Assembly (NCBI GenBank): GCA_026004935.1
Contig: BPKC01000001.1
Location: forward strand, 2,181,381 to 2,245,380
DNA length: 64,000 nt
Source of the DNA: Rhodothalassiaceae bacterium
GTDB taxonomy: Bacteria > Pseudomonadota > Alphaproteobacteria > Sphingomonadales > Rhodothalassiaceae
Reading direction: 5' to 3'
The notes below the pieces were generated by a model. The model saw only the letters and a program-made list of their open reading frames with translations. It made no database searches and was not told where the DNA came from. Every line of letters starts with the position of its first letter. Position 1 is the stretch's first letter. Positions 16,315 to 42,439 of this stretch are shown here, piece after piece. The position numbers and the translations under genes were made by a program.

Positions 16315-16318
16315 CGCC

Positions 16319-19824: not shown

Positions 19825-19826
19825 GA

Positions 19827-20171: not shown

Positions 20172-20183
20172 CCATCACGCTCC

Positions 20184-21313: not shown

Positions 21314-21325
21314 TTCGGTCTCCCG

Positions 21326-21736: not shown

Positions 21737-21753
21737 CCGCCGTCCCCTTCCGA

Positions 21754-22334: not shown

Positions 22335-22345
22335 CGGCTGTTCCC

Positions 22346-23281: not shown

Positions 23282-23314
23282 GGTCTCATCTCCTCTCTTG
23301 TCCGGTGACCGGTC

Positions 23315-23656: not shown

Positions 23657-23657
23657 C

Positions 23658-24182: not shown

Positions 24183-24728
24183 GTCGGTCTCCTTCTTCCT
24201 GCCCTCCGCGGGATCGCCCCGCTCGCTCATCGTCACGACCACCACATCGCCGCCATGCTCGGCCGCGTCGATACGCACCGGCGTCAGACCCTTGACCGCC
24301 GGCGGCTGTGCGCCGAGGAATCCCAGATGTCTGAGCGACCACACCCCCGGCACCGGATTGCCGGCGGCGGTCGGCGTCCAGAGCGCGACCGAGACGGCGC
24401 GATACCGCCCCTCGCGCACCAGCTCCGCCATCTCCGGCAGCAGCTCGACATCCAGCCACAGCCCGTCGTCGCGCGCGCTCGCCGCCGTCACCCAGCCCCA
24501 GGCCGGATCGTCTGTTTTGGGATGGCCGATCACGACCGGAGCCTGATAGCGCTCCGGGTCATACGCCGCCGCGATGGCCTGGATATCGGCGATAGTCACC
24601 TCCAGCGGCATCGGATCGGCCTGAAACCGACCGGGCCGCAGCGCATGCACGCGCGCCCGCACCAGCCGCCGCTCCGGCGTCGGCGCGGGCGGGTGTGCAG
24701 ACTCGATCTGAATGGGCGCCGTCCGCAT
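23658..24728 (-). CDS. Mu gpI-like head maturation protease with fused scaffold
   Basis: This 356-residue protein has an N-terminal protease part of Mu protein-I type (QADPMPLEVTIADIQAIAAAYDPE, APVVIGHPKTDDPAWGWV, YRAVSVALW). A Glu/Arg/Ala-rich coiled coil (about 190-250) and a C-terminal scaffold-like region follow. An internal ATG with a strong Shine-Dalgarno sequence suggests the scaffold is also made separately. It is expected to guide and process capsid assembly. The frame is intact. Confidence 0.72.
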   Translation of the reverse strand: MRTAPIQIESAHPPAPTPERRLVRARVHALRPGRFQADPMPLEVTIADIQAIAAAYDPERYQAPVVIGHPKTDDPAWGWVTAASARDDGLWLDVELLPEMAELVREGRYRAVSVALWTPTAAGNPVPGVWSLRHLGFLGAQPPAVKGLTPVRIDAAEHGGDVVVVTMSERGDPAEGRKKETDMPKDDDVKLAERLAELERRQAELERREAEAKRRADELARREAELARQRAKVELEQLARDGRIAASQVEDLAGVLTVLEQHDGTVRCAEGERRPAEVLMAVLKSLPERVQLGEMVRGGDEQPVSVRLGLPAGYRADPERVALHEAAVAWMAAHPGTDYQTAVTIAEQRLGRKREA

Positions 24729-24862
24729 GGCGGCGAGTATAGGGCGCGCGGCGTGCGCGCTTCAGGATGACGGGTGTCCTATGCCGGACAAGCCGCACAA
24801 TATGCGGCACACTCCAAGTGTATGCGGATACCCGGCTCGCCCGGCTGGTACCTCAGAAAGGA

Positions 24863-25112
24863 TCACCAGCGCCGGTAACAGTAGATGTACCCATCGTCCC
24901 ACCCGCGCTGGTATTCTTCATCGTGCGCTCGGATTGACGGCGTGATCGCCGCTGGCACATCCATGCCGCCACCCCTCCAGGTAGCTGTCGGTGCCGCTGA
25001 CCTTCGCCTTCTTCGCGATCAGTCCGTAATATTCGCGCTCGGCGGCACCGGCACACCCGGCAAGTGCTGAAAGCACCAGGAGGCCCGCGACGGCGATTCG
25101 GCGATGGATCAT
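24863..25112 (-). pseudogene. Small phage lipoprotein, apparently frameshifted
   Basis: The frame opens MIHRRIAVAGLLVLSALAGC, a lipoprotein signal with a lipobox Cys, and runs through REYYGLIAKKAKVSG and SYLEGWRHGCASGDHAVNPSA to a stop at 24918. Directly after, the next frame reads HDEEYQRGWDDGYIYCYRRW and stops at 24863. The GWxxG...GWDDGYxYC repeat suggests these are two parts of one protein split by a single-base change near 24925, this time not in a homopolymer. The alternative is that the short form is the natural protein. Role unknown. Confidence 0.45.
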
Positions 25113-25248
25113 GCTTCATTCTCCCTCCGGTGCACTCCTATGGTGCGATACAACCGCCGGTCAAGTGCCTCTCTCGCGGCCTCAGGCGGCCGCTCATGGC
25201 CGATGCGTGTCTTCTGGTGTTCCCCCCGAAAAAATTCTTCAAACGATT

Positions 25249-25264
25249 TTTAAACGGGTTTAAA
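25249..25264. promoter_or_regulatory. AT-rich perfect palindrome upstream of the lipoprotein gene
   Basis: TTTAAAC GG GTTTAAA lies in the 188-bp gap between the gpG-like gene and the lipoprotein gene, within an AT-rich stretch unusual for this genome. It may be an operator or part of a late promoter. No -35/-10 pair is convincing. Confidence 0.3.
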
Positions 25265-25300
25265 TGGGGTCTGCGTCAATGTTTCGCGTCCGGATGCGGC

Positions 25301-25837
25301 TCACCGCGCGGCCGCGGCGATATGCCGCGCGATGATCCGCACCACCAGCGTCCGGTCGCGATCGTCGAGACCGAGGAAGGGCCGCGGCGGGATGTCGCCC
25401 CAGGGGATCGGTGCGCCATGGCGCGTGCGCCCGAAGGCGCCCTTGCGGGCGCCGAACTGCTGCACGGCCGAGTAGACGAGGCTCGATCCAATCTCGACCT
25501 CCCGAGCGGAGGCCGCATGATGGATCTCCGATGACAGTCTCTTCGTCTCGCCGATGAGAGGCCGTTTCGACGCGGCCAGCCTCGCGCCGCGGCGCGTCAG
25601 CACGCCGTCACGCCGGCGCGCGCCGCGGAAGCGCGAGAGGAAGCGCGCCACCGTCACCGGGCTGTTCGGCACCCACGGCCGCCCGTCCGGACCGCGGCCG
25701 GCGGCGAAGCGCCGGCGCGTCGTCTCGGCCAGCGCCTCGCCGATCGCCTCCATCGCCGGCCGCGGAGCCGCGACGGCCGCCTGCAAGCGCCGCAGCGCGG
25801 CGATCACCGCTTCGTCCTCGACCTCGATGCGGATCAC
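25301..25837 (-). CDS. Virion morphogenesis protein, Mu gpG-like
   Basis: This 178-residue protein has the phage virion morphogenesis family pattern: FAAGRGPDGRPWVPNSPVT near residue 50, SLVYSAVQQFGARKGAFGRTRHG, then IPPRPFLGLDDRD at the C-terminus. Its position after MuF is the same as in Mu. It is probably a tail-completion or head-tail joining factor. It is intact. Confidence 0.75.
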   Translation of the reverse strand: MIRIEVEDEAVIAALRRLQAAVAAPRPAMEAIGEALAETTRRRFAAGRGPDGRPWVPNSPVTVARFLSRFRGARRRDGVLTRRGARLAASKRPLIGETKRLSSEIHHAASAREVEIGSSLVYSAVQQFGARKGAFGRTRHGAPIPWGDIPPRPFLGLDDRDRTLVVRIIARHIAAAAR

Positions 25838-26031
25838 CGGCGCAGCTCCTCCGCGATGCGCAGCAGCGCTTCCGCCTCCTCCAGCGCCGCCGCCAGCCCG
25901 CCGTCGTCAGGTGCCGACCCGGCCTCGCGACGCAGTGCGTCGCGCCAGGCGCGGATCTCGCCGACGGACGAGGACGGGCGCACGGGCGGATCCACCAGCG
26001 TCCAGCGCCGCCATCGCGTCAGGCCGTCCAT
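25834..26031 (-). CDS. Small hypothetical phage protein, 65 residues
   Basis: The protein starts MDGLTRWRRWTLVDPPVRPS and ends in a Leu/Glu/Ala helix (LEEAEALLRIAEELRR). The start overlaps the MuF stop and the end overlaps the gpG-like start by 4 bp, so it fits the operon exactly. No family recognised. Confidence 0.5.
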   Translation of the reverse strand: MDGLTRWRRWTLVDPPVRPSSSVGEIRAWRDALRREAGSAPDDGGLAAALEEAEALLRIAEELRR

Positions 26032-27337
26032 CACCGCAGGGTCTCCACAATCGCCGCGGCCACTTCGTCCACCCAGGCGGGCGGGATGGCCATGCCGTAC
26101 ACAGTATAGGCGATGAGGCCGGCGCGGGCCAGTCCCAGGTTGATCGCATGCTGCTCCCAGCGAGTCAGCTCCGCTTCCGGCACGCGGCCCTCGAGCCGGA
26201 CCAGCACCGCCAGAGCCGCGCGCATGGCTTTCGTCCACGCATCTTCGAGTTGGGCCGCATCCAGCACGCGCGCGGCATATCGCGTGCCGTCATGCCCGAC
26301 TGCGATCACGCGCGCCAGCCCCGCCGTCGCCGCCATCCTGAGGTCCTGGAACGAAAGAGAGGTCGAGCCGGGATGGTTGTGCACCGCGACGATGCCGGGC
26401 GCCAGTTCCGAGGGGGTCACGGTCACCCGGCGCGTCCCGCCGGCGCGCCACAGTACGCGCTCTCCGCGCTCGTCGACGAGAGCGAGATATTCGGTCTCGT
26501 CGGCCGCCGCGCGCCCGGCCGCCAGCACGTCGGCCTCGGCCTCCCGCACCGCCTGCCAGACGGCCCGGCCCGCCGCCAGATCCGCAAGGAGGGCGGAGCC
26601 GATCTGATCCGGCATCCGTCTCGCGCGGGCCGTGATGCGCTGCACCAGATCGGCTCGCGAGGCGCCGGGCTGATAGTCCCAGCCCTCGTCGATGCCGACT
26701 GGCGCGCCGGTGCGCGGATCGATCCGCCGCCAGGCGGGGTCGATCGGTTTGTCGGGATCGCCGCCCAGCGCCCGGGCATCCTCCGGCCGTTCGAGGCCCA
26801 CGACGCGGCATTTGCACCCCCAGCCATTGGGGGGTAGTGGCTCTGCCACCACGGATGGTCGGCCGGCAGCACCAGCCCGTCCCAGGCCAGATGCAGCGGG
26901 CGCGGATGCAGGACGCTGTCCGAGTGCTTGTACATCCACCAGCCGAGGCCGCCGGCCTTCAGCTGCGCCAGCCGCCCGGCCGCATAGCTGGTGGCGGCGT
27001 TGGTGCCGTAGATCACGCGCGTGCGCCAGTTGCGCTCGCCGCGGTAGTCCCAGCCGTGGCGGGCGACGATCTCGTCGAAGCGCCTCCGGAAGCTCTCGAT
27101 TCCCTCGCCGTCGGCGATCGCGGCATCCACCGCGGCCGCAAGATCGGCGAGCAGCTCGGCCTTCATCGCGCCGGCCACGACGAAGGCCCTGTCATGCGCC
27201 TCGCGCATCAGGTCGCGCCAGGTCTCCGTCGGAATCCGCCGCCGCATCTTCGCCCGCCAGAAGGCGAGCTGCTCCGGGAACGGCCGGCGGAAGACGCCGG
27301 CGATCTCCGGATCACGCGCCGCCGTCGGCCCCGCCAT
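26031..27337 (-). pseudogene. MuF head morphogenesis protein (Mu gp30-like) with JAMM-like domain, frameshifted
   Basis: The N-terminal frame (27337 leftward) has the MuF fold: FRRPFPEQLAFWRAK, FDEIVARHGWDYRG, WRTRVIYGTNAATSYAAGR and HPWWQSHYPP. The expected continuation NGWGCKCRVVGLERPED lies in another frame, requiring one extra base at the G6 run 26829-26834. The C-terminal part (to 26031) adds a domain with EYLALVDERGERVL and VHNHPGSTSLSFQD, resembling a RadC/JAMM metallopeptidase site with a loop one residue shorter than the classical spacing. MuF is a minor head protein. The extra domain is unusual and may be injected or act on host proteins. The break may be real or a sequencing error. 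Confidence 0.72.
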
Positions 27338-28809
27338 CGCCGCTCTCCCGGATCAGGTCGTATCGGCCGACGATCTCGGCGGTGGCGAACGCCATCGCCA
27401 GCAGGTCCGCCAGCTGCTCGGTCGGCAGATCCCGATACGCGGCGGCGATGCGCCGCTGGAGGTCCTCCATGGACGCGGCCGCGTCCACCATCGCCCGCAG
27501 CGGTGCGAACAGCGCATCCAGCGCCGGCACCGCTTGCTCCATGAGCGCCTCCGTGATCGGCTCGACCGGGGTCACGTCCTCGCCCGCCGATTCCGCGGCG
27601 CGCTCGGCCGCCTGCACGCTGTCAGGGCCGGCGGCGGCCGTCCGCGCATCCGGCGTAGCACCCGTGCGTCGCTCGTACCCCTCGCCATAGATCCGCCGCA
27701 CCGCATCCGCGCTGAGCGCCCAGCCCATGGCATACAGCCGCTGATCGCGCTCCGCGCGGCGGTCCAGATCGTCCGGATAGTCCAGATCCCGCCAGACCTG
27801 CGGATATGCGGCACCCGGCAGCACCAGATCGATCAGCCAGCGCACCCATGTGCGGTTGGCCGCGCCGCAGACGAGGTCGGCGTCCGCCTGCACGATGTCG
27901 CGGCGCACCTCGTAGTGCACCTGCGCCTGGGCACGTGAGGACCCGTCCTCGGTCGTCATCGTCTGGCCCAGGATCACCTTGGCGATCGCACGATCCCAGT
28001 AGCCCAGGAACTCCGCGTATGTCGCGGTGCCGGACCGCGTCGCCTCCAGCAGCGTCACATCCATGTCCTTCGGCAGTGCGACGCCGGCGTCGGTCTGCAC
28101 AGCGCGCAGGGCCTCGAGCAGCGGCGAGACCTGCTCGTCGGACGTCGTGGCGGGGTCGAAGCGGCCCAGCGCCGTCGGTGAGCCGAACTTCTCCAAGTAT
28201 ACCGACCAGAACCGCGCACCGTGCCGCTTGAACCACACGGGCCAGTACAGACTATGGGCGAGTCCCCGCCCATAGAGCATCTCGTGATGCGCACCGCCCG
28301 ATCGCAGCACCCAGAACTTGCGCGCCGGCAGCTCTTCGCCCTCCGGACGGGCGAAGGTGCGCAGCACCAGCCGGCCGTCGGAACGGAACGCGAACCGCTG
28401 CGGGTCGCGCGGGCGGATGTCGGCCAGTACCAGGCCGCCGCCTTCGGCCTTCCAGATGAGCTCGGCGACAGCCCAGCCGTAGAAGACGGCGTGCAGCATC
28501 TGGTCGGTCACGCGATCCCAGTCGATCCGGTCCAGGGTGGCGCGCAGCAGGTCGGCGGCCCGCCGGTCGATGCGGCGATCTCCGCCCGGGGATCACCTCC
28601 CACGGCCGGCTCACAACCGCCAGGCGGCGCTGCGCGAAACAGGCGGCCACCTGATCGTCGCGCAGAATCTCCTGGTATCCGGCCCATCCGCGCACGGCGA
28701 GCACCTCGTCGCGCGGCGGCACCCATGGCAGAGCGTCCAGATACCCCTGCGTGATGTCCCGCCCGTCGCGGGTGGTTGCGATCTCGCGCGTCAGATCCGC
28801 CTTCGCCAT
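27312..28809 (-). pseudogene. Portal protein, Mu gp29-like (DUF935), frameshifted
   Basis: The first frame from 28809 reads MAKADLTREIATTRDGRDI and on to FAQRRLAVVSRPWEVIP, then loses sense. Removing one base in the CCC/GGGG run at 28585-28591 restores GGDRRIDRRAADLLRATLDR and joins the long second frame. That frame has HAVFYGWAVAELIWKAEGG, PRDPQRFAFRSDGRLVL, KFGSPTALGRFD and IAKVILGQTMTTEDGSSRAQAQVH, all DUF935 signatures. The rest is complete to the stop at 27312. Without frameshift suppression no full portal is made. The GTA portal at 320 is from another family. Confidence 0.75.
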
Positions 28810-28810
28810 C

Positions 28811-30167
28811 TCACCACTCCCGCCTGACGCTGCCCCATCCGGCCGCCGTCACGGAGGTGTCGGCCAGCAACCCGGTCGCGCTCGTGCCCGCGCTGCGCCA
28901 GGCGCCATGGTCCACTGACCGGTCGGCCGCCGCCCCGCAGGCGAGTGCCAGCGCCCAGAACCGGTCGGCGTGGCCCGCCGCCGCGCGCGCGGCCACCAGC
29001 CGCGGGGCCCCGGTCGGCCCCGTCTCGCGCCTGACGCTGTGCAGATCGTCGCGCAGCTCCGGATTCCGCGGCAGCAGCAGGCGCCGGTCCTCGATCCGCT
29101 GGCGCAGGGGCCGTCGCCAGATCGAGCCGGCGCGGCGGCGTGAACAGGACACCCTCGACCCTGAGCTGACCGTGGCGCCGGCGCGCCTCCTCCACCACCA
29201 TCTCGCCCATGCCGGTCTGATCCAGTGCCGCGCGCACCACCCGGTACTGCCGCATCACGCGGTCGAGTGCGAAGAGCTGCCCGGCGAAGCTCTCGCCACG
29301 CATCTCCACGAGCTCGCGCAACACCAGGACGCCCCCCATATCCTCCGCCACGGCGATCACCGTCAGATCGCCGCGGGCTGCGATGTCCATCCCGACATAT
29401 GCGGGGCCGCCCTGGTAGAGATGCGGCAGACCGGCGCGCTCGTCCTCGCAGGCGATGATCAGATCATAGGGCAGCCAGGCGCTCGCCCCCTCGATGAAGG
29501 CGCACTCGAACTCCTGGGCCCAGGCCACGGGGTCGACGAGCGCCCACCTGAGCTCCTCGATGTCGCGATCGAGGCCGGCGGCGACGGCATCCTGGATGGT
29601 CACGGTATAGCGATGGCCGCTGAACGGCATCGCCGGATCCGTCATGATCTGATGGAACATGTCGCCGACGCCGGCCGGCGTCGAGATCACGCGCACCCGG
29701 CGGTCCGGCCGCGAGACGATGGGCAGCACCGCCTGCCAGATCGCCCGGTTGTCCCTGTGATGCGCGAATTCGTCGAGGATCAGATTGTCGCTCATCCCGC
29801 GCGCCGTCTCGGGCCGCGCAGCGACGGCGCGGATGTAGCTGCCGCCCGGCAGCCGCACGACGTGCGCCGGCTCGTCCGCCTCCAGCGGCTCATCCAGGGC
29901 CTCGAATGCCGCCCGAAACGCCCGCAAATGCCGTTTGACACCGTTTTCCATCGCATCCAGCGCACGGTCGCGCGAGACCGACATGATCGTCCACGGGCTC
30001 ACCCGCCCGGCCGCCTCCGCCTCCAGCACGTCGATCACGGCCTCCAAGGTCGTCGTGAATGTCTTGCCGGTCTGGCGCGCCCAGCACGCCGCCTTCCACT
30101 TGTGGGCGTCCGCCAGATACCGGCGCTGATACTCCAGCAGCACGGGCATGGGCGCCGCGTCAGCCAT
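28811..30167 (-). pseudogene. Large terminase subunit, Mu gp28-like, frameshifted
   Basis: The start at 30165-30167 (MADAAPMPVLLEYQRRYLAD) overlaps the small terminase stop. The ATPase part has WARQTGKTFTTTLEAV (Walker A-like), NLILDEFAHH (Walker B) and RVISTPAG. The nuclease part has AYVGMDIAARGDLTVIAV and ALDQTGMGEMVVEEA. After RRLDLATA the frame becomes Arg/Gly-rich nonsense. Removing one base from the G4 run at 29107-29110 gives LRQRIEDRRLLLPRNPELRDDLHSV and HADRFWALALAC, the normal terminase end, stopping at 28811. The break removes about the last 110 residues, including nuclease elements. Confidence 0.78.
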
Positions 30168-30687
30168 AGAGCGCCTCCCTGACGGTCCGCAGGGTTTCCG
30201 CATCCAGCCGCTTGCGTCCGCGTGCCGCGCGCCGCTCCAGCTCGTCGAGACGCCGGCGGACCTCGTCCTGCCAGCGCCGCTGGCTGATCGAGGCGCGGCT
30301 CGCCTCGGCGATCGCACGGGCCGCCTGCGACAGCAGCTTCACCCGCCCGGCCTGGTCCGTGGTCTCTTCGGCCTCGCCGAGCGCGACGAGCGCCTCGAAC
30401 AGCTCGGATTGGACCAGCGAGATCACGGCCTGCGAGCGCAGATCCTCGTCGTCCGGCGCGGCCTCGGCTATCAGCCGCGCGGCCTCGGTGCTGGCGCGGA
30501 TCGCCTCCAGCTTGCGCTGCAGGCGCCGGCCGTAGCGGTGCACGGACGCGTGCGAGATGTCGACGCCGGTCCTCTGACGGATGAGGGCGGCGAGCTCCTG
30601 ATAGCCGCGCCAGCCGCGCTCGATGAGCGCCCGGTCGATCCAGCGCCGCACCTCCGGCGGCATCGCCTCGATCTTGGACCGGCCCAT
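30160..30687 (-). CDS. Small terminase subunit, Mu gp27-like (DUF3486)
   Basis: This 175-residue protein starts MGRSKIEAMPPEVRRWIDRA, followed by LALIRQRTGVDISHASVHRYGR-like helix-turn-helix sequence and a helical C-terminus. DUF3486 proteins recognise DNA for packaging with the gp28-type large subunit, whose gene overlaps here. Earlier Met codons in the frame precede Arg-rich nonsense, so I chose the MGRSKIE start. It is intact. Confidence 0.8.
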   Translation of the reverse strand: MGRSKIEAMPPEVRRWIDRALIERGWRGYQELAALIRQRTGVDISHASVHRYGRRLQRKLEAIRASTEAARLIAEAAPDDEDLRSQAVISLVQSELFEALVALGEAEETTDQAGRVKLLSQAARAIAEASRASISQRRWQDEVRRRLDELERRAARGRKRLDAETLRTVREALYG

Positions 30688-30697
30688 GCCCTGGCCC

Positions 30698-31006
30698 TCA
30701 CCACTGCGGCGGGCGTGCGATGCCGGCCGGCGCGGGCGCGCGGTATTCCACGACATCCTCGCCCGCCGGCATGATCTCCGCATGCCAGAGCGGCGCATCC
30801 TGGCGGATCGTCACGAGTCCGCGGCCGGCGAGAGACTTCAGCTCGCGGCGCACCTGATCGGGCGTGACGCGCAGTGGGATGTCCTGAGCCGTGCGCAGCA
30901 GCACGTACTCGCTCGTGCCGTAGGGCCGCGCGTGCCACAGCGCCAGCAGCAGCACCCATCTGAGCGTCTCGCGTTCCGCACGCGCCATGTCAATCGGATG
31001 CGACAT
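30698..31006 (-). CDS. Mu-like phage small protein, VpaChn25_0724-type
   Basis: This 102-residue protein starts MSHPIDMARAERETLRWVLL and has a winged-helix-like pattern (LRVTPDQVRRELKSLAGRGLVTIR). Proteins of this size and look lie just upstream of small terminase in many Mu-like phages. Function unknown. It overlaps the membrane coiled-coil gene by 17 bp. Confidence 0.62.
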   Translation of the reverse strand: MSHPIDMARAERETLRWVLLLALWHARPYGTSEYVLLRTAQDIPLRVTPDQVRRELKSLAGRGLVTIRQDAPLWHAEIMPAGEDVVEYRAPAPAGIARPPQW

Positions 31007-31292
31007 GCCGGTTCCCCATCATCAGCTCATAGAGGCGATCGAGCTTCGCGTTGATCGCCGTATACTCCCTGATACTGTCCTCGCGGCGCTGGTAGTACAT
31101 CGGCAGCTCCGCGCGCAGCCGGTCCAGCTCCGCGCGCAGCGCCCGCGCGTCCGCCAGATCGGCCTCGATCCGGCCGAAGCGCTCGTCCAGCTCGCGCATG
31201 AGCCGCGCCAGCAGCGCCCGGACCAGCCACACGGCCCCGCCGGCGATCGCGCCGACGATGCTGATCACGAGCGCCCCGGCATCGAGCGTCAT
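30990..31292 (-). CDS. Membrane-anchored coiled-coil protein (DUF2730-like)
   Basis: This 100-residue protein has one N-terminal membrane helix (ALVISIVGAIAGGAVWLVRALL) and a long heptad-patterned coil (ELDERFGRIEADLADARALRAELDRLRAEL). It sits next to the holin and lysozyme, so it may be a spanin-like or holin-regulating lysis accessory. DUF2730 proteins at this position in Mu-like phages look the same. It starts 2 bp after the holin stop. Confidence 0.6.
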   Translation of the reverse strand: MTLDAGALVISIVGAIAGGAVWLVRALLARLMRELDERFGRIEADLADARALRAELDRLRAELPMYYQRREDSIREYTAINAKLDRLYELMMGNRHVASD

Positions 31293-31293
31293 C

Positions 31294-31692
31294 TCACTTC
31301 TCCCGCGCCACGCCGGCGCGCTTTTCGTAGGTGCGCAGCCCGGCCATGCCGAGCATGGCGAGCACGAGCTCCATCAGCCGGTCGCTTTCGACCTCGGGGA
31401 TCGGCGTGCCGGGCGCCCAGATCGCCACCGCCCATTCGGCCACATGCTGCCCCAGAAAGGCCCAGGCGATCGCCACCCCGCACACCCAGCCGATGAAGGG
31501 CCGCCAGCCGGCCACGTACAGGCTCTTGTGCGCCGCCTCCTGCTGGTTCACGGCGATCTGCGCCATGTCCAGCTGGAACAGCTGGCCCTGGATCTCGGCC
31601 TTGAGCTTGCGTTTGAGGTCCGTGTCGCCCACGAGGTCGTCGATGGGCTTGGCGATCGCCTGGATGATGTCGGAGATGACGGGGATGCCCAT
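31294..31692 (-). CDS. Holin, GTA_holin_3TM-like
   Basis: This 132-residue protein contains AHKSLYVAGWRPFIGWVCGVAIAWAFLGQHVAEW, the WRPF(I)GW hallmark of three-TM holins of GTA and alphaproteobacterial phages, then a second hydrophobic segment (LMELVLAMLGMAGLRTYEK). It forms membrane holes to release the endolysin encoded 3 bp upstream. It is intact. Confidence 0.78.
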   Translation of the reverse strand: MGIPVISDIIQAIAKPIDDLVGDTDLKRKLKAEIQGQLFQLDMAQIAVNQQEAAHKSLYVAGWRPFIGWVCGVAIAWAFLGQHVAEWAVAIWAPGTPIPEVESDRLMELVLAMLGMAGLRTYEKRAGVAREK

Positions 31693-31695
31693 GGT

Positions 31696-32295
31696 TCAGC
31701 TCCCGATGCGGGTTGCGATGGCGAGTGCCGCGGCCGCATCCACGGCCTCCTGCGGCAGCAGCGCGACAAGCCTGTTCTGCCAGCCGCGCGCGAAGACGCC
31801 CTGGGCGGGATCGGCCGCGATCAGCCGCTCGAGATCCAGCGCGCGCAGCAGCAGCAGGAGCGCCGCGGCCCGCGGGCCGAGCCGCGCGGCAAGCCGCCCG
31901 GCCGCGGCGATGGTGCGCGGGCCGATGATGCCGTCGATGCCGCCGACGTCGCCCACGGCTGCGGCCAGCAGCCGCTGCAGCAGCCGGATGGCGCGCACGC
32001 GACCCATGTGCACCGCCGCATCCAGCATCACCTCCTGAAGCGCGCTCGGCAGGCGGTCGATCCCGGGCTCCGCGAAGAAGCGGGCGCGATAGATCGCCCG
32101 CGCCTCGTCGGCCTCGAGCCGCGCGACCTCGTCAGGCCCCACCGGCCGGCCGCGCCAGGCGGACAGGGTCGCTCGGGTGATGCCGTATTTCGTGGGACCG
32201 CCCCGGTCCGCCGCATGCGCCACATAGCCGCCCTCGCGGGCGAGGAGGGCGTCGAGCATGTCGTCTACGCTGTTGCTGTCGGACGGCCGGCGCAT
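31696..32295 (-). CDS. Endolysin, glycoside hydrolase family 108
   Basis: This 199-residue N-acetylmuramidase has a GH108 domain with the catalytic Glu in AREGGYVAHAADRGGPTKYGIT (Glu21), a DEARAIYRARFF segment and LQEVMLDAAVHMGRVRAIRLLQ. A C-terminal peptidoglycan-binding-type part (GIDGIIGPRTIAAA) follows. It is the first gene of the late operon, followed by holin. Met13 is an alternative start. No signal peptide is seen, so export depends on the holin. It is intact. Confidence 0.82.
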   Translation of the reverse strand: MRRPSDSNSVDDMLDALLAREGGYVAHAADRGGPTKYGITRATLSAWRGRPVGPDEVARLEADEARAIYRARFFAEPGIDRLPSALQEVMLDAAVHMGRVRAIRLLQRLLAAAVGDVGGIDGIIGPRTIAAAGRLAARLGPRAAALLLLLRALDLERLIAADPAQGVFARGWQNRLVALLPQEAVDAAAALAIATRIGS

Positions 32296-32380: not shown

Positions 32381-32446
32381 CTACTCCGGCGTCACCTCGA
32401 CCGTGATTCCACGCCCGGTGAGCCGGGTCAACGACTCGTCGATCAT
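32381..32446 (-). CDS. Possible 21-residue leader-like peptide after the repressor
   Basis: The frame reads MIDESLTRLTGRGITVEVTP and one more residue, and its ATG overlaps the repressor stop codon. The overlap suggests coupling. The short length makes chance possible. Confidence 0.25.
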   Translation of the reverse strand: MIDESLTRLTGRGITVEVTPE

Positions 32447-33066
32447 CACCGCACCGTCCGCCCCACCCACACCACGCGTCCGATGATCTCGGCCTCGCCG
32501 TCCTCTCCCAGCCGCACATCCATCGGCGGGTAGGCGGGATTGTCGCTGATCAGTCGCACACGCCGCCGACCCAGCGGCTGCACGCGCTTGGCCATCGCCA
32601 GGTCACCAATCCTGACGATATAGATGCCGTCCCGAGGCTCTTGGTGACGAGCCCTCATATCCACCAGGACGGCATCGCCATGGGATAAGGTTGGCTCCAT
32701 CGAATCACCGACGATACGGACGACGATTGCTTGATTCGGCGTGCCTACCTGCCGGCGCAACCAATCGGAACGGAACCCTAGCCAATCGACCACCTTTTCG
32801 CTGTCGATCAGTGCACCGCCGCCAGCCGCAGCCTCAACGTCTATCACAGGGACGCGGACAAGTCCCCCAGACCGAACGCCGGTAAGCACGTAATGGATAT
32901 CCACACCGGCCGACGCCAAGGACCTCAACGCATCCCCACCAGGAACGCGCCTCCCCAACTCATATCCTACCAATGTGGCCTTCGGAATGCCGGCAGCAGC
33001 CGCCAGCGCGGCCTGACTGAGACCCAGCCGTGTGCGTTCCTCCTTCAGGCGATCTCCCATTGTCAT
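32446..33066 (-). CDS. Phage repressor, HTH_XRE plus LexA-like S24 peptidase
   Basis: This 206-residue protein has an N-terminal helix-turn-helix (LKEERTRLGLSQAALAAAAGIPKATLVGYE) and a C-terminal S24 autoprotease. Ser122 lies in VGDSMEPT, Lys160 in MAKRV, and a candidate cleavage site in DVEAAAGGG near residue 81. It should keep the early promoter off and be cleaved through RecA during SOS. I chose MTMGDRL over an upstream Met because the latter lies in the operator. It is divergent from ner. It is intact. Confidence 0.85.
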   Translation of the reverse strand: MTMGDRLKEERTRLGLSQAALAAAAGIPKATLVGYELGRRVPGGDALRSLASAGVDIHYVLTGVRSGGLVRVPVIDVEAAAGGGALIDSEKVVDWLGFRSDWLRRQVGTPNQAIVVRIVGDSMEPTLSHGDAVLVDMRARHQEPRDGIYIVRIGDLAMAKRVQPLGRRRVRLISDNPAYPPMDVRLGEDGEAEIIGRVVWVGRTVR

Positions 33067-33095: not shown

Positions 33096-33124
33096 TTGAC
33101 AATATGCCAATCGGCATATATGCT
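33096..33124 (+). promoter_or_regulatory. Early promoter with embedded operator
   Basis: TTGACA (33096-33101), a 17-bp spacer and TATGCT (33119-33124) form a good sigma-70-type promoter 7 bp before the ner start. The spacer is itself the palindrome ATATGCC AATC GGCATAT (33102-33119). A repressor or Ner bound there would directly block RNA polymerase. Confidence 0.7.
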
Positions 33125-33131
33125 GTTGTCC

Positions 33132-33374
33132 ATGCGTATAGAGACTAGCACAAATTCCCACGACTGGCACCCCGCAGATGTGATCGCGGAGCTGCACAAG
33201 CGCGGCTGGTCGCTGCGCGCCCTCGGCCGGGCCAACGGCTACTCTCCCAATTCACTGCGCCGCGCGCTCAGACATCCCTGGCCGAAGGCCGAGCGCATCA
33301 TCGCAGAGGCCATAGGTTTGCCCCCGCAGGAGATCTGGCCCAGCCGCTACCTGGGCCGGGAGCATGCGTCATGA
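33132..33374 (+). CDS. Ner-like early regulator
   Basis: This 80-residue protein of the Ner/Nlp family has HDWHPADVIAELHKRGWSLRALGRANGYSPNSLRRALRHPWPKAERIIAEAIGLPPQEIWPSRY split over its whole length, with the helix-turn-helix in the middle. Ner represses early transcription in Mu once transposition begins. It is the first gene of the rightward operon, directly after the promoter/operator. Its stop overlaps an ATG in the transposase frame. Confidence 0.85.
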   Translation: MRIETSTNSHDWHPADVIAELHKRGWSLRALGRANGYSPNSLRRALRHPWPKAERIIAEAIGLPPQEIWPSRYLGREHAS

Positions 33375-33583: not shown

Positions 33584-35497
33584 ATGAAGGAGTGGTGGAC
33601 GGCCCGCGAGCTGGCCTCGGCCCGGCTGCCCGGGCTGCCCACATCACTCCGTCGCCTGCGCGATCACATGCGCCGCCATGGTTGGGATACGGCCGTCGGG
33701 CCGGATGGCGCACCGCTTTCCCGCCCGCGCACGGGTCGCGGCGGCGGCCGCGAATACCACATCTCGCTGCTGCCGCCGGCCGCCCGCCGGCACCTCGATG
33801 ACGGGAAAGACGCAGATGCACAGCCCGCCAGAGCCACAGTCGACTGGGCCCTGTGGGAGCGCGCGAGCGAGCGCGAGCGCGCCATCGCGGCCCGCCGCGC
33901 CGAGCTCTGTCGTCGCGTCGCCGAGATGGCGGTTGCCGGCGCGCCGGTGCGCGGCGCGATCGCCGAGGTGGCGGCCGGCGAGCCGGGCGTGAGCGCCGCG
34001 AGCCTGCGGCGCTGGTGGTACGGCGACGGCCGGCGGCCTCCTCTCGCAGCGCTGCCGCGCGGCGACTGGCCCGTGGTGCTGCTGCCGCACCGGCGGGGCG
34101 GCGCCGGCGCGCCGCGCGCCGACATCCACCCGGAGCTCTGGGAGATCCTCAAGGCCGACTGGCTGCGACCAGAACAGCCCAGCATCGCCGCCTGCTGGCG
34201 GCGGCTGAAGCGCGTGGCCGAACAGCGCGGCTGGCCCGTCCCCTCCTATGATACCGTCAGGCGACGTCTCGCCGAGCTGCCCTGGCAGGTCGTGGTGCTG
34301 GCGCGCGAGGGCGAGGAGGCGCTCAAGCGCCGGCTCGATCATGTCACCCGCTCGCGCGCGCATCTCGCCCCGCTCGATGCCGTCACCGCCGACGGCCACA
34401 CCATTGACCTCAGGGTGCGGCTGCCGTCCGGGCGGATCGGCCGGCCGGTGCTGATCGCCTGGCAGGACCTGTATTCCGGCATGATCCTGGCCTGGCGGCT
34501 GGGCGAGGCCCCGTCCGCCCATCTCGTGCGCCTGTCATTCTGGGACATGGCGCGCGCGCACGGCGTCCCGCGCGCCGTGTATCTGGACAACGGCCGCGAG
34601 TTCACGGCCAAATGGCTCTCCGGCGGCGTCCCGCACCGCTACCGCTGGCGCGTGCGCGACGAGGATCCGGTCGGTCTCTTCCGCCTGCTCGACATTTCGG
34701 TGCACTGGACGACGCCCTATCACGGGCAGGCTAAGCCCATCGAGCGCGCCTTCGGCACGCTGGCCGAAGAGATCTCGCGCCATCCGGATGCGCGCGGCGC
34801 CTACACCGGACCGGCGCCGCACAAAAAACCCCACGACTATGGCCGCCGCGTGCTGGAGTGGGAGACTCTCCAGCGCATCGTCACACACGGCATCCATACA
34901 TATAATGAGACGCCCGGCCGCCGCACCGAAACCGCCCGCGGCCGCAGCTTCGGGCAGACCTTCCGCGACGCGCTGCCGACGGCCGTCATCCGCCGCGCCA
35001 GCGAGGAGCAGCTGCGGCTGTGCATGCTGGCCTGCGAGGGCGTGCGCGTGCGCCGCTGCGGCGGCGTCTTCCTGGCGCGCAACCGCTACTGGGCGGACTT
35101 CCTGCCTCCGCTCATCGGCCGCGAGGTCGTCCTGCGCTTCGACCCGGACGACCTCGCCGCACCCGTCCATGTCTATCTGCCGGACGGACGCTATCTGGGC
35201 GCCGCGGCCCGCACGGCGGCTGCCTTCGACGACATCGCGAGCGCCCGGGCCGTCACCCGCGCGCGCCGGCGGCGCATCCGTGCGGCGAAGGAGATGCTGG
35301 CCGCCCAGCGCGAGGAATCCGCTCTAGCCGCGCTCGCGGCGCCGGATCGGGACGAGGCCGCCGATGCGAGACCCGCCGCCGTCGAGCTCATCCGGCCCGC
35401 GCCGCCCCGCCGCGAGAGCGAGGCCGACCTGGATTACGTCCGTGCGGCCGACGCCATCGTGCTGTCGATGGCCCGGGCGCGGGCCGCCGAGGCCTGA
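33584..35497 (+). CDS. MuA-type DDE transposase
   Basis: This 637-residue transposase cuts and joins phage ends. It has an N-terminal Mu DNA-binding domain (MKEWWTARELASARLPGLPTS). The catalytic core has Asp270 in VTADG, Asp335 in VYLDNGREF and Glu387 in GQAKPIERAFG, spacing almost equal to MuA. A beta-barrel with RYWADFLPPLIGREVVLRFDPDD follows, then a basic/Ala-rich C-terminus for MuB contact. I chose the ATG at 33584 because a GGAGGT site precedes it. The frame is open back to 33371, overlapping the ner stop, so a 708-residue form is possible. It is intact. Confidence 0.88.
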   Translation: MKEWWTARELASARLPGLPTSLRRLRDHMRRHGWDTAVGPDGAPLSRPRTGRGGGREYHISLLPPAARRHLDDGKDADAQPARATVDWALWERASERERAIAARRAELCRRVAEMAVAGAPVRGAIAEVAAGEPGVSAASLRRWWYGDGRRPPLAALPRGDWPVVLLPHRRGGAGAPRADIHPELWEILKADWLRPEQPSIAACWRRLKRVAEQRGWPVPSYDTVRRRLAELPWQVVVLAREGEEALKRRLDHVTRSRAHLAPLDAVTADGHTIDLRVRLPSGRIGRPVLIAWQDLYSGMILAWRLGEAPSAHLVRLSFWDMARAHGVPRAVYLDNGREFTAKWLSGGVPHRYRWRVRDEDPVGLFRLLDISVHWTTPYHGQAKPIERAFGTLAEEISRHPDARGAYTGPAPHKKPHDYGRRVLEWETLQRIVTHGIHTYNETPGRRTETARGRSFGQTFRDALPTAVIRRASEEQLRLCMLACEGVRVRRCGGVFLARNRYWADFLPPLIGREVVLRFDPDDLAAPVHVYLPDGRYLGAAARTAAAFDDIASARAVTRARRRRIRAAKEMLAAQREESALAALAAPDRDEAADARPAAVELIRPAPPRRESEADLDYVRAADAIVLSMARARAAEA

Positions 35498-35516: not shown

Positions 35517-36476
35517 ATGCCCAACGCAGACGTCGTCACCATCACCCGCGACCGCCCCGATGAGATCATCGAGGCTGTGAAGGCCGAGATCGCGCGCAGC
35601 GGCGCGACCCAGGCACAGGTGGCGCGCGAGGCCGGCGTCAGTCCCACCACGCTGACCCAGCTGCTGTCCGGCACCTATGCGGCCGACCCGTCGCGGATGA
35701 CGGCCCGGCTCGCCCAGTGGCTCGCCCGCCGCCGCGAGCAGCAGTCCCGGCCGGCGATGCCGGCCGCGCCGGCCTGGTGCGAGACGGAGACGGCATCGCG
35801 CATCATGGCCGCACTCGCCTACGCACACATGGCCGGCGACATCGCGCTCATCTACGGCGCGGCCGGGGTCGGCAAGACGATGACGGCCCGCGCCTATCAG
35901 GCGCGCTACCCGCAGGTCTGGATCGCCACCATGTCACCGGCCACATCCGGCGTCGCCACGGCGCTGGAGGAGGTCTGTCTCGCGCTCGGTCTGCGCGAGC
36001 CGCCGCAGTCGGCCGCCAGGATGATGCGCGAGATCGTCTCCCGCACCCGCGACACGGGCGGCCTTCTCATCATCGACGAGGCCCAGCATCTGGGCCACGC
36101 GGCGCTGGATGCCCTGCGCGCGATCCACGACGAGGCCGGCATCGGGCTGGCACTGATGGGCAACGACCTCGTCTACACGCGCATGACGGGCGGCACCCGC
36201 GCCGCCTGGCTGGACCGGCTGTGGTCCCGGATCGGCCGGCGTCTGAGGATCGGTGGCACCACGCCCAGCGATATCAAGGCCCTGGCCAGCGCCTGGGGGC
36301 TGCAGGATGACGCGGCCCACAAGCGCCTCGCACGGATCTGCCGTGGCCCCGGCGGGCTCCGGAGCGCCGTCAAATGCCTGCGGCTGGCCCAGCTCATGGC
36401 CGACGGCCGCCAGGAGACGCTCGCCGATGCACACATCCGCGAGGCCTGGCGGGATCTGACGGGCGAAGCAGCCTGA
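35517..36476 (+). CDS. MuB-type transposition ATPase / target selector
   Basis: This 319-residue AAA+ protein activates MuA and delivers target DNA. It has an N-terminal helix-turn-helix (TQAQVAREAGVSPTTLTQLLSG), Walker A GAAGVGKT (114-121) and Walker B LLIIDEAQ (183-190). A C-terminal region has SRIGRRLRIGGTTPSDI. GGAAGGAGG lies just before the start, which rules out upstream codons. Length is close to Mu B (312). It is intact. Confidence 0.88.
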   Translation: MPNADVVTITRDRPDEIIEAVKAEIARSGATQAQVAREAGVSPTTLTQLLSGTYAADPSRMTARLAQWLARRREQQSRPAMPAAPAWCETETASRIMAALAYAHMAGDIALIYGAAGVGKTMTARAYQARYPQVWIATMSPATSGVATALEEVCLALGLREPPQSAARMMREIVSRTRDTGGLLIIDEAQHLGHAALDALRAIHDEAGIGLALMGNDLVYTRMTGGTRAAWLDRLWSRIGRRLRIGGTTPSDIKALASAWGLQDDAAHKRLARICRGPGGLRSAVKCLRLAQLMADGRQETLADAHIREAWRDLTGEAA

Positions 36477-36492: not shown

Positions 36493-37137
36493 ATGAGACC
36501 TGAGATCGTCATCACGCACGGCGAGGAGCTGCAGACGGGCCTCGATCGCGCGGCCCGCCGTCTCGCCGGGCGCTTCGACGGCGCGAAGGTGACGGCGCTC
36601 GTCGTGCTGTGGGACCGGCCCGAGCTCGGCGCGCTCGTCATCAAGGAGGCCCGCATCGGCCGCATCCGCCAGGAGGGCGGGCGCTTCGAGGCCGAGCTGC
36701 GCGGCCTGCTCGATGCGCTGGAGACGGCCGCCGGCGAAACCTTCACGCCCTTCTGCCGCGCCGAGCTCGGGGATGCGCGCTGCAAGCGGGGCCTCAGGGC
36801 CTTCACCCGCGAGACCACGGTGGCCGCCGTCCCCGGCCCGCAGCAGCTCACGCTTGCGGCGCTCACGGATCCCGACCACTGGTACGACTTCGGGCGGCTG
36901 CGGTTCCACACCGGCGCGAACGCCGGTCTGGATGCCGAGATCGTCGAGCAGATCGGCGCGACGCTTACCCTGCTCACCCCGCCGCCCGCACCGGTGGCGG
37001 TCGGCGACGTCGTGGAGGTGGAGGCCGGCTGCGACAAGCGGCTTGAGACCTGCCGCGACAAGTTCGACAATCTCGAAAACTTCCGCGGCGAGCCCTTTCT
37101 GCCCGGTATCGATCGCCTGTTCGATTATCGCACGTGA
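36493..37137 (+). CDS. Chimeric frame: phage early-gene start fused to GTA g13 (DUF2163)
   Basis: The first about 26 residues (MRPEIVITHGEELQTGLDRA) begin 16 bp after MuB with a good GGAGGAG site and look like the start of a phage early gene. From GRFDGAKVTALVVLWDRPELG onward the frame is DUF2163. It has IGRIRQEGGRFEAELRGLL, FCRAELGDARC and NLENFRGEPFLPGIDRLFDY, the conserved hub C-terminus with its Cys residues. About 100 N-terminal residues of DUF2163 are missing. The fusion near 36571 is in frame. It marks a deletion that removed the prophage left end, and probably the missing GTA genes with it. Any product would be a truncated hub. Confidence 0.75.
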   Translation: MRPEIVITHGEELQTGLDRAARRLAGRFDGAKVTALVVLWDRPELGALVIKEARIGRIRQEGGRFEAELRGLLDALETAAGETFTPFCRAELGDARCKRGLRAFTRETTVAAVPGPQQLTLAALTDPDHWYDFGRLRFHTGANAGLDAEIVEQIGATLTLLTPPPAPVAVGDVVEVEAGCDKRLETCRDKFDNLENFRGEPFLPGIDRLFDYRT

Positions 37138-38082: not shown

Positions 38083-38823
38083 TCAGCCGCCGGGGGCCTT
38101 TTCGGCCTCGGCGGTGCCGGCGGCGGCTTCCTGCGCGGGCCCGGCTTCGGCCTCCTGCTCGGCGGCGAGCGCGGCCGCGGCGGCGACCTCCTCGGTGCCG
38201 GGCAGCTCGACGGAGCCGAGATCGGCACCCGGCGCGTTCGACTGCACCTGCGCCGCCTGCCCGCCCGCCTGGGCCGCCTGCTGCTGGCGGGCCTGCGGCG
38301 GGATGATCTGGTTCAGCAGATACTCGGCGCGCCGGCCGATCTCCTCGATCGCCTTGGCGAGATTCTGCATGTTGTAGCCGACGCCGCGGAAGACGAAGAT
38401 CTTCGTCTCTGTATCGTACAGACGATAGATTCCTTCGTCCTTGAGGCCGGGGATGTTCAGCGCCCGCGCCGGGCCGACGAAGTCGAAGAGAACCTGATCG
38501 CCCTGGGTCCGCTTCAGCCAGTCGTCGAATTTTTCGTCCGCATGGTCCCACAGCTCGACGAAGCGGCGGTCGCCGAGGGCGTGGCTTTCGGGCAGCCCCA
38601 GCTTCTCGCGCAGGATCTCGCCGCGACGCCGCGCCCGTGCGCGCGGCGGCCACAGCAGCGCGGCGACCTGGGCGGCCGAGGTCAGCGCCGCCTGGGCGGC
38701 GAACAGCGCGCCGTTCCACTGCTTCTCCTGGAGCGCCTGATTGAAGATCTGGAAGGCCGCGCGCGTGAACAGGCACTGCGAGCGGATCTCGTGCATGTAG
38801 ATGACGAAGCGGTTGATGTCCAT
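38083..38823 (-). CDS. Hypothetical protein, antisense gene between GTA g13 and g14
   Basis: This 246-residue protein starts MDINRFVIYMHEIRSQCLFT, is largely helical, has GDQVLFDFVGPARALNIPGLKDEGIYRLYDT in the middle, and ends in an Ala/Glu/Gln/Gly-rich low-complexity tail of about 80 residues. No family recognised. Natural amino-acid composition (IYM, FVFRGVGYNMQNL) supports a real gene. Its place on the opposite strand inside the structural cluster parallels the gene at 2047-3192. The role may be cargo or moron; this is an inference. Confidence 0.5.
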   Translation of the reverse strand: MDINRFVIYMHEIRSQCLFTRAAFQIFNQALQEKQWNGALFAAQAALTSAAQVAALLWPPRARARRRGEILREKLGLPESHALGDRRFVELWDHADEKFDDWLKRTQGDQVLFDFVGPARALNIPGLKDEGIYRLYDTETKIFVFRGVGYNMQNLAKAIEEIGRRAEYLLNQIIPPQARQQQAAQAGGQAAQVQSNAPGADLGSVELPGTEEVAAAAALAAEQEAEAGPAQEAAAGTAEAEKAPGG

Positions 38824-38915: not shown

Positions 38916-39500
38916 ATGCCCGTCTTGAGAAGCCCGCAGCCGGCGCCCGCTTCGCCGCATCCCGGCGCGTGCGCCGCCCATCCGCTCGCCCATCGGATTC
39001 TGGCCCGGGCGCGCATGCTCATCGGCACGCCCTTCCATCATCAGGGCCGGGTGCCGGGGCGGGGGCTCGACTGCGTCGGGCTGGTGCTCGTGATCGCCCG
39101 GGATCTGGGGCTGACCGCCTTCGACTGCACCAGCTATCCGCGCGAGCCGCGCCCGGCGCTGCTGTTCGCCCACGCGCGCCAAGCCGGCTTCGTGGAAAAG
39201 CCGCTCGCCCGCGCGGCCGGTGGCGACGTGCTCGTGATGCGCTTTTTCGAGGATCCCTGCCATGTCGCGATCGCAACCGAGGGGCTTGCCGGCATCATTC
39301 ACGCCTGCGCGCGGCGCGGACGGGTGATCGAACACCGGCTGGACCGCCGCTGGCGCCGGCGGATCACCGGCTGCCTCGCCTTCCCGCCGCCAGACGGGTC
39401 CGCCGGTCAGGCCCGCCCGGGACTCGACCCGGGCCCGCCGAACGACGCGAACGCGGGAGGTCACCCGCCGACAACTTTTGTGCGTCACCCGCCGGCTTGA
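38916..39500 (+). CDS. GTA g14-like NlpC/P60 peptidase with repeat-derived C-terminus
   Basis: The peptidase (residues 1-160) has Cys53 in GLDCVGLVL, His116 in CHVAI and His129 in IIHA. This is the catalytic order of GTA cell-wall peptidases that open peptidoglycan for DNA entry. The native family end is at CLAFPPP near 39396. After it, the frame runs for 34 residues through REP repeat DNA (GSAGQARPGLDPG and on) to a chance stop. The original stop was evidently lost when the repeat arrived. It lies upstream of the g15-like hub, as in GTAs. Confidence 0.78.
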   Translation: MPVLRSPQPAPASPHPGACAAHPLAHRILARARMLIGTPFHHQGRVPGRGLDCVGLVLVIARDLGLTAFDCTSYPREPRPALLFAHARQAGFVEKPLARAAGGDVLVMRFFEDPCHVAIATEGLAGIIHACARRGRVIEHRLDRRWRRRITGCLAFPPPDGSAGQARPGLDPGPPNDANAGGHPPTTFVRHPPA

Positions 39501-40130
39501 CCCGCGGGTCCAGCCCGATTCGGCGTCCGCCCCAAGCGCCGGGACCGTTGCGCACGGTGGCTGGATTCGCCGCTTTCGCGGCGAATGACGAAGAAAAAGA
39601 GCGTCACCCGCCGGTACACCATCCTCGCGTCATCCGCCGACTTGATCGGCGGATCCAGCGGGAAGCGGAGCAAACACCAGCGCCCGGAATGTCTTCACCT
39701 CCCGATGGGTTCGCCGGTCAAGCCGGCGAACGACGCGAAAGGAGAGCGCCATGCGCCGCGGTGCACCTCCAATCGTCACCCGCCGACTTGATCGGCGGGT
39801 CCAGCCGGATGCGGGCTCGGCCCCAAGCGCCGGGACCGTTGCGCACGGTGGCTGGATTCGCCGCTTTCGCGGCGAATGACGAAGAAAAAGAGCGTCACCC
39901 GCCGGGGAAGCTTTCGCCCTTCGCGCGCCGGCTTGACCGGCGGGTCCAGCACACTCCCGCGTCACCCGCCGACTTGATCGGCGGGTCCAGCCGGATGCGG
40001 GCTCGGCCCCAAGCGCCGGGACCGTTACGCACGGTGGCTGGATTCGCCGCTTTCGCGGCGAATGACGAAGAAAAAGAGCGTCACCCGCCGGCTTGACCGG
40101 CGGGTCCAACGGGATGCGGAGCCGCTCACC
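39394..40130. repeat. REP/BIME-like palindromic repeat array 3
   Basis: About 740 bp between the peptidase domain and the hub gene consists of BIME-like pairs. A unit with CGTCACCCGCCGACTTGATC, a spacer CCCCAAGCGCCGGGACCGTT and the inverted partner TTCGCCGCTTTCGCGGCGAA occurs near 39480 (variant), 39775 and 39962. A second unit at 39628 matches the unit at 37374 in array 2. No gene is supported beyond 39500. Confidence 0.82.
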
Positions 40131-40132
40131 GG

Positions 40133-40185
40133 CTCGCGACCGACGACCGATGACCGACGACTGACGACCGACCGCAACCCCGGAG
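40133..40185. repeat. Degenerate heptamer tandem tract
   Basis: CGACCGACGACCGATGACCG and following heptamer variants (GACCGAC, GACTGAC) end 10 bp before the hub start. This matches the tract at 4391-4511, which ends 9 bp before the g3.5-like start. Confidence 0.65.
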
Positions 40186-40195
40186 ACGCGACTGC

Positions 40196-42439
40196 ATGGC
40201 GACCCTCATCCTCGGCAACATCGGCGGGCGCATCGGCGGACCGCTCGGCGCCCTCATTGCCGCCCAGCTCGGCAACCGGCTCGACCGCCGCCTGCTCGGC
40301 GGCCGCCCGCGCCGTCAGCCGCTTGACGACAACCGCCTGTTCCTCGACTCCTCCTACGGCGCCCCGATCCCGCTGGTCTACGGCCGGGCGCGGGTGGCCG
40401 GGCACGTCGTCTGGGCGAGCAGGATCGACGAGCGCCGACGCGACCGCCCGCGCCGCGGCAAGGGCGGCGGCGGAGGCGGCGGCGGGAACACGAAGCGGTC
40501 CTACTTCGTCTCGCTCGCGGTGGCGGTAAGCGCCCGGCCGATCCTGCGGATCGAGCGGATCTGGGCCGACGGCAAGCTGCTGGTCGATGCCGACGGCGGC
40601 CGGCTCATGCCCTTCGAGATGACGGTGCACCCGGGCGGCGAGGAGGCGCTCGCCGATCCCGTGATCCAGGGCTTCGAGGGCGCGGAGAACACCCCGCCCA
40701 TGCGCGGGCTCGCCCATGTCGTGCTCGAGGATCTGCCGCTCGCCGAATTCGGCAACCGGATCCCCAATCTTTCCTTCGAGGTCGTGGCGGACGAGACGCT
40801 GGAGCTCGGCGCGCTGCTCGTCGATCTCGCCGCGCGAGGCGGTGTCGCGGCCACGGCCTCGCCGGCGCTCGCCCGCCCCGTCACGGGGCTTGCGATCGTC
40901 TCGGACGTGCCGCTCAGGGCCGCGCTGGAGGCGGTGATCGAGGCGGCCGACGTGCTCGTCGCCGAGCGGCCCGGCGCGCTCGCCTTCCTTGCGCCGGAGG
41001 ATGCCGAACCGGTCGCCCCGCCCGCACACGCCTTCGGTGCGGGTGTCGAGGGCGGGGCGGCGGCCTCCGCCGTCAGCCGCATGCGCCGCGACGGGGCGCG
41101 GCTTCCCGTCGGCATCGATCTCGCCTTTCTCGATCCCGCGCGCGACTACCAGCGCGCCGTGGAACGCGCGCGCCGCCGCCAGGCCGGAGCGCGCAGGGTC
41201 GAGACGCTCGACACCGCGCTCGTGCTCGAGGCGTCCCGGGCGCGTGCCGAAGCCCACCGGATTCTCGCCGCGCGTGTGCGCGAGGCGGAGCGGATCACAA
41301 CCGTGCTGCCGCTGGCCGACGCGCTCGCGGTCGAGGTCGGCGACCGCCTCGCCCTGCCCGACGGCGGCGAGATGCTCGTCATGGGGCTGGAGGCGGAAGC
41401 TGGCCGGATGATGCTGGAGGGCGCGCCCGCGGTGCTGCCGGCGGCCGCCGCCGCCCCGCCGCCGCCCGCCACACCCGGCTTTCCGCCGCTGCTGCTGCCG
41501 GCTCCGGGCCCGACGCGCGCGCATCTTCTGGACTTTCCGGGCTTCGTGCGCGAGGAGGACGAGCCGGTGCTGCCGGTGGCGCTGGCCGGGCCTTCGGCGG
41601 GCTGGCGCAGCGGCGCGCTCTTCGCCTCATTGGACGGCGGCGAAAGCTTCGCGGTCGTCGCCGAGACGGCCGCGCCCGCCGTCATCGGCGATGTCGAGGT
41701 GCCGCCGGGTCCCGGCCCCACCGCCTTCTGGGACGAGGCGAACAGCCTCGTCGTGCGTCTGCTGCGCGCCGACATGACGCTCGAATCCCGCAGCGCGCTG
41801 GCGGTGCTCAACGGCGCCAATCTCGCGATGGCGGGCGCGGAGCTCCTCCAGTTCCGCAACGCGGTGCTGCAGGCCGACGGCAGCTACCTTCTCACCGGTC
41901 TGCTGCGCGGACGCCAGGGCAGCGAACACGCCGTCGCGTCCCACGTCGCGGGCGAGCCCTTCGTGCTGGTGGACGGCGGCGGGCTGGCCGATGCGCGCAT
42001 CCCGCTCGTGCTCGCGGGAACGAAGGTGCTGGCGAAGCCGGTCTCCGACAGCGACGATCCCGATGCCGTCGCCCCCGTCGAAATCCCGGTCGCGCTGAAT
42101 GCCCTGAAGCCGCTCTCGCCCGTTCATGTGAAGGCGCGGCGGCTCGCGGGCGGCGATGTCGAGATCACCTGGATCCGGCGCACGCGCCGCGGCGGCGCCT
42201 GGCTGGACGGCACGGATGTCCCGCTCGGCGAGGAATGCGCCTGCTACGAGGTCGAAATCCTCGACGGCGCGGGTGCGGTGCGCCGCGTCCTGTCGGCGAG
42301 CGGCGAGTCCGTCACCTACACGGCCGCCGCCCAGCAGGCCGATTTCGGCGCGCTGCCGGCAAGCCTCGCCGTGCGCGTCTACCAGCTCAGCACCCGCATC
42401 GGCCGCGGCCGGCCGGCCGAGACCGTGCTGGCGCTCTGA
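40196..42439 (+). CDS. GTA g15-like tail hub / host specificity protein without TIM barrel
   Basis: This 747-residue protein starts MATLILGNIGGRIGGPLGAL, then has PIPLVYGRARVAGHVVWASR, a Gly-rich loop, and RSYFVSLAVAVSARPILRIERIWADGKLL, the GTA megatron N-terminus. The middle has tail-hub domains (LPLADALAVEVGDRLALPDGGEMLV). The C-terminus has LLTGLLRGRQGSEHAVASH and a fibronectin-like end with HVKARRLAGGDVEITWIRRTR. GTA g15 proteins are usually about 1300 residues and carry an inner GTA_TIM glycosidase-like domain, which I do not find here. It is uninterrupted. Confidence 0.75.
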   Translation: MATLILGNIGGRIGGPLGALIAAQLGNRLDRRLLGGRPRRQPLDDNRLFLDSSYGAPIPLVYGRARVAGHVVWASRIDERRRDRPRRGKGGGGGGGGNTKRSYFVSLAVAVSARPILRIERIWADGKLLVDADGGRLMPFEMTVHPGGEEALADPVIQGFEGAENTPPMRGLAHVVLEDLPLAEFGNRIPNLSFEVVADETLELGALLVDLAARGGVAATASPALARPVTGLAIVSDVPLRAALEAVIEAADVLVAERPGALAFLAPEDAEPVAPPAHAFGAGVEGGAAASAVSRMRRDGARLPVGIDLAFLDPARDYQRAVERARRRQAGARRVETLDTALVLEASRARAEAHRILAARVREAERITTVLPLADALAVEVGDRLALPDGGEMLVMGLEAEAGRMMLEGAPAVLPAAAAAPPPPATPGFPPLLLPAPGPTRAHLLDFPGFVREEDEPVLPVALAGPSAGWRSGALFASLDGGESFAVVAETAAPAVIGDVEVPPGPGPTAFWDEANSLVVRLLRADMTLESRSALAVLNGANLAMAGAELLQFRNAVLQADGSYLLTGLLRGRQGSEHAVASHVAGEPFVLVDGGGLADARIPLVLAGTKVLAKPVSDSDDPDAVAPVEIPVALNALKPLSPVHVKARRLAGGDVEITWIRRTRRGGAWLDGTDVPLGEECACYEVEILDGAGAVRRVLSASGESVTYTAAAQQADFGALPASLAVRVYQLSTRIGRGRPAETVLAL

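Follow-up and report, generated by a model that had tools for sequence, protein, structure and literature searches.

Background and overview of the locus

GTA clusters have been pseudogenised or lost in multiple alphaproteobacterial lineages (PMC10883770). The locus described here, found in a 64,000-nucleotide stretch of DNA from a Rhodothalassiaceae bacterium (the window, 64 kb), is one more such loss, with its cause visible. Like the clusters reported earlier, the cluster in the window is partial and non-functional while relatives keep a full one; unlike them, its loss is traced to a prophage and to a deletion that starts inside it. Compared with g13 of the RcGTA-type cluster of Alphaproteobacteria, the window retains the C-terminal half of PF09931 and the whole of PF09356, with g14 and g15 downstream in their usual order, but it lacks the first ~89 g13 codons and all of g6 to g12. 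The prophage shares with Mu-like siphophages (L115/G445 of IMG/VR and Rhodovulum phage vB_RhkS_P1) the genes c, ner, MuA, and MuB, Mu-type head genes, a lambda-type tail, and repeated transposase sites at an end. In contrast to these phages, it is devoid of the left end and of the post-MuB region, its early block diverges from the late block, and its terL, portal, and MuF genes appear frameshifted. Features and coordinates are listed in Table 1.

Table 1. Features of the interrupted GTA cluster and its prophage (window positions)
Feature	Position	Strand	Basis
GTA g5 (major capsid), final intact GTA head gene ahead of the prophage	5565..6815	+	Capsid comparison
Prophage right end, TGTACGT and two repeats	6950..6999	+	CAGCAGAATAAATGGGACAC at 6957 and CAGCAAAATGAATTGAGACAC at 6979, 22 bp apart
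Late block: tail fibres, J, tape measure, capsid, MuF, portal, terL/terS, holin, GH108 endolysin	7178..32295	-	PHROGs, Pfam, tblastn
c repressor (HTH and S24 peptidase)	32446..33060	-	Pfam, phrog_4
Ner-like repressor	33120..33374	+	phrog_769, E 6e-33
MuA transposase	33584..35497	+	phrog_310, E 5e-146; Pfam PF02914
MuB	35517..36476	+	PF09077, E 1.3e-21; phrog_296
Fused frame	36493..37137	+	214 codons; ATG at 36493, stop at 37135-37137
Head of the fused frame, ~25 codons; putative start of a post-MuB gene	36493..36567	+	Position and ribosome site
GTA g13 remnant (DUF2163 baseplate hub), codon ~90 of 281 to the end	36568..37137	+	Pfam; same-genus orthologue, 63%
Unassigned gene in the g13-g14 interval	38083..38823	-	Same place and strand in L024-L027
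GTA g14 (NlpC/P60) and g15, downstream of the join	38916..42439	+	Pfam; orthologues in L024-L027

The GTA cluster has lost its tail genes

In the same-genus genome G001, the prophage-free cluster L024 reads g5, three small genes, g6 to g12, g13, a minus-strand gene, g14, and g15. The window reads g5, prophage, truncated g13, minus-strand gene, g14, and g15; we observe directly that g6 to g12 are missing from the interval, and the GTA loss amounts to ~7.9 kb on the scale of L024. The capsid protein encoded by g5 is 80% identical to the same-genus GTA capsid and 59 to 62% identical to others in the family. DUF2460 (g12) was not found in a genome-wide search, and g13, which belongs between g12 and g14, is followed by g14 and g15 in a genome without g12. 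Because g6 to g12 are missing, and judging from the known RcGTA genes, a GTA particle presumably cannot be built from this cluster, and the genome should not be counted as GTA capable.

The minus-strand gene between g13 and g14 encodes 246 aa and is 48 to 75% identical in four family members (L024 to L027). It has no match in Pfam or PHROGs and may be read as a conserved passenger or partner of the GTA family. In L024, the g5-g6 interval (reverse complement, 937-3026) holds three genes of 454, 129, and 94 aa, and the other family clusters that we examined gave no match to any of them. At the other end of the window cluster, the GTA portal gene g3 (320-2035) has a 571-aa frame. Its final ~160 residues resemble none of the families and relatives checked, with a seemingly lower GC content, and an unrelated minus-strand gene (2047-3192) follows. 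The altered C terminus of g3 is the second lesion of this cluster.

The prophage retains one end

The prophage is Mu-like and carries tail genes of the lambda type (a siphophage). Both MuA and MuB homologues are present, and MuB is 65% identical to that of L115 (G445), which, with 67% identity in terL, is the closest complete-looking relative. Relative to L107 and L115, apparent single frameshifts lie in terL (~29110), portal (~28586), and MuF (~26830), and these are either real decay or sequence errors.

The right end (~6950) lies 134 bp past the g5 stop codon. In G445, as in the window, the right-end sites are a pair 22 bp apart; its left-end sites are a pair 51 bp apart, and both pairs have the core TTGAGACAC of the window repeats. 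G449 likewise shows the 51-bp spacing at the left end. The difference in spacing between the two ends helps to locate the ends of this phage group. The core is confined to the right end in the window, and a weight-matrix scan of all 64 kb detected no paired sites beyond that end. Thus, of the two ends with inverted transposase sites that are expected of a Mu-like prophage, the right is present and the left absent. This agrees with the initial annotation, which had held the phage left end to be missing: the right-end repeats recur nowhere else in the 64 kb. Because the left end is gone, a single flank remains at the insertion, one of the two at which a target-site duplication would be expected. 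The prophage is a defective remnant. Neither the right-end region nor the MuB-g13 join was found in a second copy elsewhere in the genome. The post-MuB early and middle region is absent as well, since 167 ORFs from this region of nine related phages, many of which match each other, gave zero matches in the window at E 1e-3.

The frame downstream of MuB contains a truncated g13

The initial annotation described an open frame that begins 16 bp past MuB with a good ribosome site, carries about 26 residues unrelated to DUF2163, and continues unbroken as DUF2163 from GRFDGAKV onward, the first third of the domain being lost. Each of these points held. The MuB stop at 36476 and a GGAGGAG motif 5' of the ATG agree with the described start. 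In Pfam, residues 24 to 98 of the frame correspond to positions 84 to 158 of the 160 in PF09931, and residues 130 to 206 to positions 2 to 79 of the 80 in PF09356; in PHROGs, the frame matches phrog_778 (tail assembly), starting at profile position 81. Of the two domains that together characterise the g13 hub, PF09931, the N-terminal attachment domain, is therefore cut and PF09356 complete. The g13 of L024 has 281 aa and is 63% identical, and its codon 89, where the alignment opens, corresponds to residue 25 of the window frame; the first ~89 of the 281 g13 codons are gone. At the DNA level, identity to L024 g13 jumps at GRFDG, from 3 to 7 of 15 bases in each earlier five-codon block to 13 of 15 in codons 26 to 30. 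The frame is the sole PF09931 match in a genome-wide profile search, and it is a truncated g13 remnant. A "tail assembly protein" annotated at this position should be regarded as a truncated relic.

Among 40 related genomes searched, 23 have a DUF2163 match. The best orthologues have ~280 aa, and nearly all aligned g13 orthologues are full length. The N terminus of the window frame (MRPEIVITHGEELQTGLDRAARRLAGRF) occurs in none of the 23 matching genomes, nor did these contain a full-length protein with this N terminus in a prophage-free GTA cluster, which the initial annotation had named as the case that would speak against a deletion. Second DUF2163 copies exist in two relatives (G003:C14:26217-26852 and G005:C6:4978-5589) within open frames of 1078 and 932 aa, possibly fusion proteins from another phage.

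The head of the frame is another matter. It had been proposed to derive from a phage early gene, and this was not borne out by similarity: ten post-MuB ORFs of Mu-like phages scored no better than shuffles (p 0.10 to 0.92), including MRITDKAFVYVPADETDIRRTFARVRRRLA of L115, the best-looking counterpart (p 0.35). A search of phage records with the 28-aa head gave no match, and across 385 genomes from the class the best outside match (E 0.02) was in a 73-codon frame; no MuB was found near the seven head-match loci checked, this one among them. Genes after MuB vary strongly among phages, and the phage origin of the head is a putative one, assigned by position. Of the two alignments that were expected to meet near codon 26, the DUF2163 alignment begins at residue ~24 to 25 as expected, whereas the one to a post-MuB gene is absent. 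The breakpoint can be placed no closer than about codons 18 to 26.

Third-position GC of the fused frame is 0.90. The kept codon structure fits a recent event and says nothing in favor of use. Taken alone, the in-frame join is weak evidence, because one-third of joins fall in frame, and at this site more than 150 codons stay open in two of the three reading frames.

Origin of the seam

We consider it probable (about 0.78) that the seam was produced by one deletion running from the gene next to MuB through the phage left end into g13. A Mu-like siphophage would have inserted among the head-tail genes of the GTA, its right end coming to lie 134 bp past g5; a later deletion would have opened ~75 bp inside the gene that follows MuB, spanned what was left of the early and middle region, then the left end of the phage and GTA g6 to g12, and ended at g13 codon ~90. 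The resulting frame would be a non-functional relic in which a short head, assigned to the phage operon by position, reads in frame into the last two-thirds of g13. The initial annotation had likewise proposed that one deletion explains both the g13 truncation and the missing left end. Such a deletion suffices for these two losses but leaves the reversed early block unexplained, and it would have been wider than proposed, as g6 to g12 and the whole post-MuB early and middle region are also gone.

The reversed block concerns the orientation of ner, MuA, and MuB (plus strand), opposite to that of the late block and c (minus strand). The closest phages (L115/L114, L107, L116, and L147; MuB 59 to 65%, terL 62 to 67%) are collinear, and in the window the gap from the endolysin gene to c is merely ~150 bp. 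From these observations it is possible, if rather unlikely, that a collinear ancestor underwent inversion of the c-ner-A-B block, with losses at both block ends. L192, however, shares the layout of the window, with terS, late genes, and c on the minus strand and ner-MuA-MuB plus early genes on the plus strand, and L125 has the same divergent layout; the reversed block by itself therefore does not prove an inversion. Among loci found through c-repressor relatives, none had a layout that could be matched to the window. In L192, MuB is followed by 4 kb or more of early genes, among them what we take to be a DUF3164-like and a GemA-like gene. The divergent layout is either native to the phage or the product of an extra inversion; if the layout was as it is now, as in L192 and L125, one deletion removes exactly what is missing. 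Early-region rearrangements are not unusual, since in KS10, a transposable Burkholderia phage, the first 17 kb are reported to be apparently inverted relative to Mu (PMC2628397). The history of the locus may include an inversion of the early block, before or together with the deletion. Counting against the single-deletion account are the second GTA lesion in the portal C terminus and the prophage frameshifts, from which it follows that the locus was struck by more than one event, as well as the lack of a phage match to the head beyond chance and the collinearity of the phages closest by MuB and terL.

Other explanations concern the frame itself. The join could lie 5' of the ATG, so that the frame uses the start of g13 itself and lost its N-terminal domain by an internal in-frame deletion. 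The g13 genes of G002 and G003 likewise start with MRP (that of G002 with ATGAGACC), and a gapped alignment can put TH and L on conserved columns; the score of the head against g13 N termini is, however, equaled by 770 of 1,000 shuffles, and this origin, which would call for two or more internal deletions, is quite improbable. We regard an assembly misjoin as very improbable: the join is known from assembled sequence, and sequence errors might underlie the frameshifts of terL, portal, and MuF, but the join falls within a 2.9-Mb contig, the genome is rated 100% complete, and our searches found the missing pieces nowhere else in it. That the frame is a native g13 variant with a short N terminus is extremely improbable; it is open, with a ribosome site and the high third-position GC given above, yet the orthologues are of full length almost without exception, and g12, its upstream neighbor in relatives, is absent.

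Under the single-deletion reading, the fused frame is a product of commonplace decay, of prophage and GTA alike, and no new kind of gene. We give hardly any credence to the idea that the fusion was retained as useful, as a chimeric protein expressed from the prophage early operon, for example one whose hub fragment blocks infecting phages or residual GTA parts. The locus would instead illustrate a route of GTA loss, in which a transposable phage inserts and a deletion from within the phage strips the tail genes and disarms the phage simultaneously.

An inverted-repeat-like element, CCGGCTTGACCGGCGG, occurs in 25 copies (up to two mismatches), with 0.33 expected. It appears to be a REP-like dispersed repeat that fills gaps within and around the GTA cluster, with copies at 3380-4248, 37382-37962, and 39400-40103.
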